DNA from: Methyloprofundus sp.
GTDB taxonomy: Bacteria > Pseudomonadota > Gammaproteobacteria > Methylococcales > Methylomonadaceae
Assembly: GCA_030636485.1 (NCBI GenBank)
Contig: DAOVWV010000106.1
Span: 1-6,285 of the forward strand
DNA: 6,285 bases
Direction of reading: 5' to 3'
Shown: positions 1,748 through 3,550 of the stretch, piece after piece
How positions within the stretch are numbered: position 1 is the stretch's first letter
Layout of the letters: the number at the start of each line of letters is the position of its first letter
Notes under the pieces: generated by a model
The model's database searches: none
Told to the model about the DNA's origin: nothing
What the model saw: the letters and a program-made list of their open reading frames with translations, nothing else
Made by a program: the position numbers and the translations under genes

Positions 1748-3550
1748 CTATGACTCTTTATTAACTTGTAAAACAGCCAAAAATGCCTCTTGTGGAATCT
1801 CTATGCTGCCGACCTGCTTCATGCGTTTTTTACCCGCCTTCTGCTTCTCTAATAGTTTTTTCTTACGCGAAATATCCCCGCCATAACATTTAGCGGTCAC
1901 ATTTTTACGCATCGCCTTAACCGTTGAGCGTGCAATAATTTTACCCCCGATAGCCGCCTGAATAGCGACTTCATACATTTGTCTGGGAATAATTTCTTTC
2001 ATCTTATCGACTAATTCACGACCACGTGTCTGACTTAAGTCACGATGCACAATAACCGAGAGTGCATCCACTTTATCGCCGTTAATCATAATATCCAGCT
2101 TAACCAAAGCGGCTTCTTCAAAGCGTTTAAAATCATATTCAAAAGAAGCATAACCACGGCTGACAGATTTTAAACGATCAAAAAAGTCCAATACCACCTC
2201 GCTTAAAGGTAACTCATAGTTCAACGAAACCTGGTTCCCCATATATTGCATATTAACCTGAGTACCACGCTTTTCAACGCACAAACTAATCACGTTCCCT
2301 AAATATTCTTGCGGCACCAGAATATTCGCCTGAATAATCGGCTCCCGGATCATTTTTATAGAGCCCACATCAGGAAGCTTAGCAGGATTATCCACTTTTA
2401 ATAGCTCACCTTTATTCGTTTCTACTTCATACACAACCGTCGGTGCTGTCGTAATCAGGTCAACATCATACTCGCGCTCCAGGCGCTCCTGAATGATCTC
2501 CATATGCAGCATCCCTAGGAAACCACAGCGAAATCCAAAACCCAAAGCCTGAGAAGATTCTGGCTCAAACTGCAGAGCCGCATCATTAAGGTGTAATTTA
2601 TTTAAAGATTCACGCAAATCCTCGTAATCATCCGAACTGACTGGATACAACCCAGCAAAGACCCTGGGCTGTACTTTCTTAAACCCTGGTAAAGCCTCAC
2701 TACAAGGTCTATCAGTCAGAGTAATCGTATCCCCCACAGGTGCACCAAAAATATCCTTGATGGCAGCAACAACAAAGCCAACCTGCCCTGTCTTCAGTTC
2801 CAATTCATCTTGGCGCTTAGGAGTAAATATACCGATTCTTTCAGCAACAAAGCTATTACCAGTAGACATAATGGTAATTTTCTGTTTTTTACGCAAGGTG
2901 CCATTAATGACTTTTACCAGAGAGACAACCCCCAGATAATTATCAAACCAGGAATCAATAATTAAAGCCTGTAGCGGCCCGTCTTCATCACCCTCAGGTG
3001 CTGGAATAATATGCACCAACTCTTCAAGAACATCTGGAACACCCAAGCCTGTCTTAGCGCTTACACGTAAAGCATCTTCTGCCGAAATACCGATAATATC
3101 TTCAATTTCCTGAATGACTTTTTCAGGATCAGCCGAAGGTAGATCAATTTTATTTAACACTGGCATCACTTCCAGGCCAAGTTCAATCGCGGTATAGCAA
3201 TTTGCCACACTTTGCGCTTCGACCCCCTGTGCCGCATCAACAACCAGTATAGCGCCTTCACAAGCCGCCAATGAGCGCGAGACTTCATAGGAAAAATCCA
3301 CATGCCCTGGTGTGTCAATAAAATTCAACTGGTAGGTTTCGCCATCTTTAGCCGTAAAATTCAAGGTGACACTCTGCGCCTTGATGGTAATGCCCCTTTC
3401 CCGTTCTATATCCATAGAATCAAGTACTTGTGCATTCATCTCACGATCAGAAAGACCGCCACAGTGTTGAATAAAGCGATCAGCCAATGTTGATTTCACA
3501 TGATAAATATGAGCAATAATCGAGAAATTTCGTATATGTTTTAAGTCCAT
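1748..3550 (-). CDS. lepA: Elongation factor 4 (LepA) with altered P-loop
   Basis: LepA/EF4 is a ribosome-associated translational GTPase linked to back-translocation and 30S assembly. The 600-residue product is full length and close to E. coli LepA throughout. G2 is in RERGITIK (50-57), G3 is DTPGH (79-83, with the catalytic-type His83), G4 is NKID (133-136) and G5 is SAK (164-166). The LepA-specific C-terminal end is present, with the GGDISRKKKLL motif and the QEAFLAVL terminus. The anomaly is G1: residues 13-21 read AHIYHVKST, whereas the family has AHIDHGKST. Asp is thus replaced by Tyr16 and the nearly invariant Gly by Val18, which predicts poor or no GTP binding. The ATG at 3550 matches the family start (MxxIRNFSIIAH), yet no Shine-Dalgarno sequence is visible. 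It heads the operon with lepB, DUF4845 and rnc. Identity is certain; activity is doubtful unless the two codons are sequence errors. Confidence 0.97.
   Translation of the reverse strand: MDLKHIRNFSIIAHIYHVKSTLADRFIQHCGGLSDREMNAQVLDSMDIERERGITIKAQSVTLNFTAKDGETYQLNFIDTPGHVDFSYEVSRSLAACEGAILVVDAAQGVEAQSVANCYTAIELGLEVMPVLNKIDLPSADPEKVIQEIEDIIGISAEDALRVSAKTGLGVPDVLEELVHIIPAPEGDEDGPLQALIIDSWFDNYLGVVSLVKVINGTLRKKQKITIMSTGNSFVAERIGIFTPKRQDELELKTGQVGFVVAAIKDIFGAPVGDTITLTDRPCSEALPGFKKVQPRVFAGLYPVSSDDYEDLRESLNKLHLNDAALQFEPESSQALGFGFRCGFLGMLHMEIIQERLEREYDVDLITTAPTVVYEVETNKGELLKVDNPAKLPDVGSIKMIREPIIQANILVPQEYLGNVISLCVEKRGTQVNMQYMGNQVSLNYELPLSEVVLDFFDRLKSVSRGYASFEYDFKRFEEAALVKLDIMINGDKVDALSVIVHRDLSQTRGRELVDKMKEIIPRQMYEVAIQAAIGGKIIARSTVKAMRKNVTAKCYGGDISRKKKLLEKQKAGKKRMKQVGSIEIPQEAFLAVLQVNKES

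Follow-up and report, generated by a model that had tools for sequence, protein, structure and literature searches.

LepA (elongation factor 4) is a translational GTPase that is non-essential (PMC4342817, PMC4245954). In the Escherichia coli protein, His81 is required for GTP hydrolysis (PMC4339808, PMC4245954). The corresponding laboratory mutant H81A retains nucleotide and ribosome binding (PMC4339808), and complementation in E. coli fails with this GTPase-dead protein (PMC4245954). Natural alleles are described from clinical isolates of Mycobacterium tuberculosis: their LepA is altered at conserved positions in the GTP-binding domain, and the variants do not fully complement a delta-lepA strain (PMC7242378). 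Inactive or GTP-holding relatives of the translational GTPases are known in eukaryotes, as described for Tsr1 (PMC4895721) and Ski7 (PMC4509514), which have altered active-site residues within the same fold. In eIF5B, Asp533 coordinates a monovalent cation (PMC4509514), and the same paper cites work according to which the cation adds little to catalysis.

The window, i.e., the whole stretch of DNA analyzed here, comprises 6,285 nucleotides and is one entire contig (C321) of a draft Methyloprofundus genome (G000), which was assembled from environmental DNA and amounts to 2.15 Mb in 394 contigs at 63% completeness. It carries a lepA gene whose product agrees with LepA of other organisms (TIGR01393; E. 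coli 3cb4, 2ywe) in length, domains, G3 and G4 motifs, the His81 equivalent, and the C-terminal domain. The difference lies in the G1 motif, in which residues 16 and 18 are Asp and Gly in the other organisms and Tyr and Val in the window. Like the M. tuberculosis alleles, these missense changes affect conserved positions in the GTP-binding domain, but the former come from clinical isolates and were complementation-tested (PMC7242378), whereas the latter are seen in the sequence of one draft genome. The loss of GTP hydrolysis that was shown for H81A (PMC4339808, PMC4245954) is predicted for the window protein; nucleotide and ribosome binding are intact in H81A (PMC4339808), whereas a direct impairment of nucleotide binding is predicted for the G18V change. 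The altered active-site residues are also reminiscent of Tsr1 (PMC4895721) and Ski7 (PMC4509514), but these are eukaryotic proteins with functions of their own, whereas the window holds one change that is present in no relative examined.

The lepA gene and its altered P-loop

The features of the window are compiled in Table 1. The lepA frame scores 981.8 bits against the NCBIfam profile TIGR01393, for which the cut-off is 533.9. Its product exceeds the Pfam cut-offs for GTP_EFTU, GTP_EFTU_D2, EFG_III, EFG_C, and LepA_C, with the EFG_III match being narrow (27.8 versus a cut-off of 27), and the Pfam domain search listed no match to EF-G domain IV. The alignment of the protein with E. coli LepA 3cb4 runs over the entire length, and the His of its DTPGH motif aligns with His81. 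By every sequence feature tested except the G1 motif, which departs from the AHIDHGKST that characterizes LepA, the gene is lepA. Among the matches listed, the named nearest relatives of the protein are from Methyloprofundus and from methanotrophic gill symbionts of Bathymodiolus. A plasmid search with the window returned five records, two of which match at about 72% over lepA and three of which share a 42-base match in rnc.

Table 1. Positions of the features of the window
Feature	Position	Strand	Remarks
lepA (elongation factor 4)	1748..3550	minus	600 codons and stop, one uninterrupted frame
G4 motif	3143..3154	minus	NKID, normal
G3 motif	3302..3316	minus	DTPGH, normal
G1 (P-loop) motif, residues 13-21	3488..3514	minus	AHIYHVKST where AHIDHGKST is usual
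Span including both altered codons	3497..3505		bases 3498 and 3505 are A on the plus strand
Codon 18	3497..3499	minus	GTG (Val); changed base 3498
Codon 16	3503..3505	minus	TAT (Tyr); changed base 3505
tusC and rppH	3839..4728		upstream of lepA
Imperfect hairpin	5649..5740		92 bases
tmRNA gene ssrA	5862..6239		Rfam RF00023

In the same-genus loci, codon 16 is GAT (Asp) in 14 of 14, and codon 18 is GGG (Gly) in 13 of 14 and GGT in the remaining one. The window therefore differs from the genus codons by two coding-strand G-to-T changes, at 3505 and 3498, that are seven bases apart. An earlier note on this DNA had read the P-loop as AHIYHVKST with Tyr for Asp and Val for Gly, had described the 600-residue frame and the other G motifs as intact, and had suggested that both changes could be single G-to-T changes from GAT and GGG. 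The codons, the uninterrupted frame with its normal DTPGH and NKID motifs, and the genus codons bear out all three statements.

A second intact lepA that would free the window copy was also considered, the earlier note having proposed a search for such a copy. Only a single lepA turned up in the sequence available for this genome (63% complete); a further copy may sit in the missing part.

Occurrence among relatives

A protein search was performed in a set of 5.8 billion sequences, from which the best 120 proteins (the window included) of 8000 scored were compared. Among the 119 others, residue 16 is Asp in 117 of 117 readable relatives and residue 18 is Gly in 118 of 118, and these two are the sole residues of the window protein that are absent from all 119. 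For a second search, scoring was restricted to residues 1-45, a stretch over which any protein with the same Tyr and Val would be expected to gain words. Together, the lists contain 207 LepA proteins, the window among them. IIAHIDHGKST is present in all 204 others with a readable motif, and the two remaining proteins of the 206 are unreadable across the full motif; one of these two begins at HGKST and thus keeps the Gly.

The genome searches gave the same picture. AHIDHGKST occurs in 80 of 80 loci, which are the best 80 of 586 in a species-level genome collection. Of 60 searched relatives, 57 gave a LepA-level match, and 29 of these 57 came back as loci, all of which keep the motif; the reading of the motif covered these 29, the other 28 including one that is truncated before it. 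The three relatives with no LepA-level match are draft bins with completeness of 66 to 91%. Tyr16/Val18 was hence found in none of the relatives examined in the protein lists and in the 80 and 29 genome loci, and an inherited genus variant is ruled out by the Asp and Gly kept in every same-genus locus. The question raised earlier of whether Y16/V18 is common to close relatives is answered in the negative, and with GAT and a glycine codon in the relatives, the window variant is either a private change or an error.

Private departures at conserved LepA positions occur elsewhere as well. In the 207 aligned proteins, 262 columns are identical in all rows or in all but one. At least one of these columns is broken in 27 proteins, in 23 of them once only; 17 of the 27 show mild breaks only and 10 show non-conservative ones (BLOSUM62 below 0). 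The window is alone among the full-length proteins of this alignment in having two non-conservative breaks (-3 each), which are two residues apart. More breaks are found in one protein only, a sequence of 545 residues whose C-terminal end is divergent. Judged by this alignment, the oddity of the P-loop is more than chance.

Constraint and age of the change

Compared with the closest genome (G014), the window lepA has a dN of 0.023 and a dS of 1.11 at 96% protein identity. The window protein retains 438 of the 441 columns that are invariant across 14 genus relatives, with the three departures being residues 16 and 18 and a mild E473D. The remaining lepA sequence is, by these comparisons, under strong purifying selection. 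For an estimate of age, about half of dS was assigned to the window branch, and the 441 columns were taken to hold about 1,029 nonsynonymous sites. A gene that had been functionless over the whole branch would be expected to carry several hundred changes at these sites. Since a single other change is seen, the period without constraint would be at most about 1% of the branch, a rough figure because dS is near saturation. A loss of function, if there was any, must be very recent given how tightly the rest of lepA is constrained, and the lesion is either very recent or not real.

Base-change spectrum and assembly quality

Six genes (leuS, lon, parC, topA, glnA, and lepA) of G000 were compared with 14 or 15 genus relatives each, covering 12,504 bases. 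G000 has 56 private base changes in this set, of which two are G>T (both are the P-loop sites) and one is C>A. These two types together thus make up 3 of 56 changes, and in the eleven other genomes of the genus that cover all 12,504 bases they range from 0/32 and 0/40 up to 4/27. The lack of a G>T excess is evidence against oxidised DNA and against a mutator. At invariant columns, G000 has three non-conservative private residues, two of them at the P-loop, and the eleven other genomes of complete coverage have one to seven. Private residues as harsh as BLOSUM62 -3 occur in four other genomes also.

Frameshifts were searched with relatives' proteins of at least 120 amino acids and matches of at least 60% identity, and none was found in 69 protein-contig comparisons of G000 spanning 35,556 bases. 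Stops are present in five of the 69 pairs. In two of them the stops lie upstream of the start Met, and in a third the stop falls among the six final residues of the match. A fourth pair, at 62% identity, is ambiguous, with one stop upstream of a Met and one in a poorly matching end, and the fifth is located at the start of the window. A generally poor assembly is rejected by the absence of frameshifts in these 69 pairs. As the assembly is decent on average, an error at the P-loop would have to be local. The P-loop sites are in the middle of the contig, away from its ends.

Clusters of private residues within five codons number two in G000 and zero to two in each of the other genus genomes, so an excess of clustering is not distinctive of G000, and clustering is weak evidence on its own. 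A separate pair of adjacent private residues is present in leuS of G000 (contig C30), where M569L and D570G (codons 569-570) lie at genus-invariant columns and require three base changes within six bases. In the genus relative G013, the only glutamine synthetase match found has an in-frame TAA at codon 241 of glnA, which probably reflects either an error in the draft or a gene that is broken. Suspicious single-base lesions therefore do occur in these drafts.

Origin of the two substitutions

The substitutions at 3498 and 3505 are best explained, with a probability of roughly 60%, by a local error, made in the consensus or the assembly, in a lepA gene that is normal elsewhere. A poor-quality or thinly supported stretch of reads would have become the consensus at the P-loop, and the living organism would probably carry the usual Asp and Gly codons. 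Local assembly errors are reported to be present in curated metagenome genomes, with 13 in one case of 1.13 Mb (PMC7111523). The change is confined to one assembly and conflicts with the constraint elsewhere in lepA, as expected of a local error, but the same would be true of a real recent mutation. Two changes of the same type seven bases apart suggest one event, as if one read held both errors, and the clustering favours either one bad read or one multi-base mutation as this event. An error, rather than a mutation, is what we would bet on in view of the missing sharing, the clustering, the constraint, the fragmented 394-contig draft of 63% completeness, and the glnA lesion in G013. Against an error speak that G000 is not generally error-rich and shows no frameshifts, that the sites are mid-contig, and that equally harsh changes occur in four other genomes. 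The location in the P-loop is in part an ascertainment effect, as the window was chosen for its striking look. If the change is an error, it shows that a lone draft genome can give the impression of a dead enzyme that exists in no population, and that relatives together with a multi-gene base-change spectrum help to judge such apparent lesions.

The main rival is a real and very recent loss-of-function allele of lepA, which we regard as possible and hold tentatively. The protein would be made, its GTP binding and hydrolysis would be abnormal, and it would behave as a null. The glycine preceding the P-loop lysine shapes the phosphate-binding turn. Val18 would disturb this turn and Tyr16 would take away the cation-holding Asp of the P-loop, and together they are predicted to weaken both the binding and the hydrolysis of GTP. 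In our own reading of the motif, the position of Asp16 is that of the monovalent-cation ligand Asp533 of eIF5B (PMC4509514). By analogy with H81A, which fails to complement, a Tyr16/Val18 allele would, if real, most likely be null. The otherwise intact frame and the assembly that is otherwise clean in the regions compared agree with a real allele, as does the dispensability of LepA; given this dispensability and the partial-loss alleles of M. tuberculosis, a natural null would add one more case to a kind already known. A single hit would be enough to inactivate the gene, however, and two hits of the same type seven bases apart need a multi-base event or a coincidence. A template switch from a nearby repeat is rejected as such an event: the changed 9-mer has no second copy in the window on either strand that could have served as donor, and the segment 3300-3900 yielded no inverted repeat. 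The six-gene survey gives no mutator signature, and no relative examined shares the allele. If it is real, the window is a snapshot of lepA loss in a methanotroph, in agreement with LepA dispensability and the known loss-of-function alleles. Both ordinary explanations offered by the earlier note, a recent loss-of-function allele and a consensus error, thus survive in the light of relatives that keep Asp and Gly. Its proposal of oxidised DNA as a general cause does not fare as well, given the base-change spectrum of G000.

It is very improbable that selection maintains the protein as a pseudo-GTPase of the Tsr1 or Ski7 kind, whose action on ribosomes would escape control by GTP. The conservation of the window protein everywhere outside G1 would fit such a role, and so would the existence of these eukaryotic relatives (PMC4895721, PMC4509514). 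The altered site occurs in no relative examined, however, instead of being shared across a clade, and the G3 and G4 motifs are undamaged although a pseudo-GTPase could let them drift; the recency of the change accounts for the conservation of the remaining protein. We likewise give very little credence to a methanotroph population whose full-length LepA is unable to grip GTP and still binds ribosomes nucleotide-free as a GTP-independent factor. The suggestion that a LepA with altered GTP control has become fixed finds no backing in the relatives. Only such a retained GTP-free LepA, unlikely as it is, would have a bearing on the role of LepA at the ribosome.

That the DNA sample suffered oxidative damage throughout the genome, or that the lineage is a G:C-to-T:A mutator, is hardly credible: the two P-loop changes are indeed both G-to-T, but the G>T and C>A share in G000 lies within what the eleven other genomes show.

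Neighborhood of lepA

In the genus relatives, lepA is followed by lepB, DUF4845, and rnc wherever the sequence extends so far. On the upstream side, 12 of 14 genus stretches have matches to tusC and rppH close to lepA. Of the two stretches with no such match, one ends at lepA and the other, from G009, has about 9 kb there; the lepA neighborhood is therefore not universal.

Between a HAD phosphatase gene and the tmRNA gene lies the imperfect hairpin (-41.3 kcal/mol, z -5.9). Similar copies occur both in G000 (7 of 36 other sampled contigs) and among the genus relatives (6 of 34 stretches). The hairpin is a repeated REP- or MITE-like element. The adjoining ssrA gene matches its Rfam model with 204.9 bits, and ARAGORN gives ANDENYSMALAA as the tag peptide.
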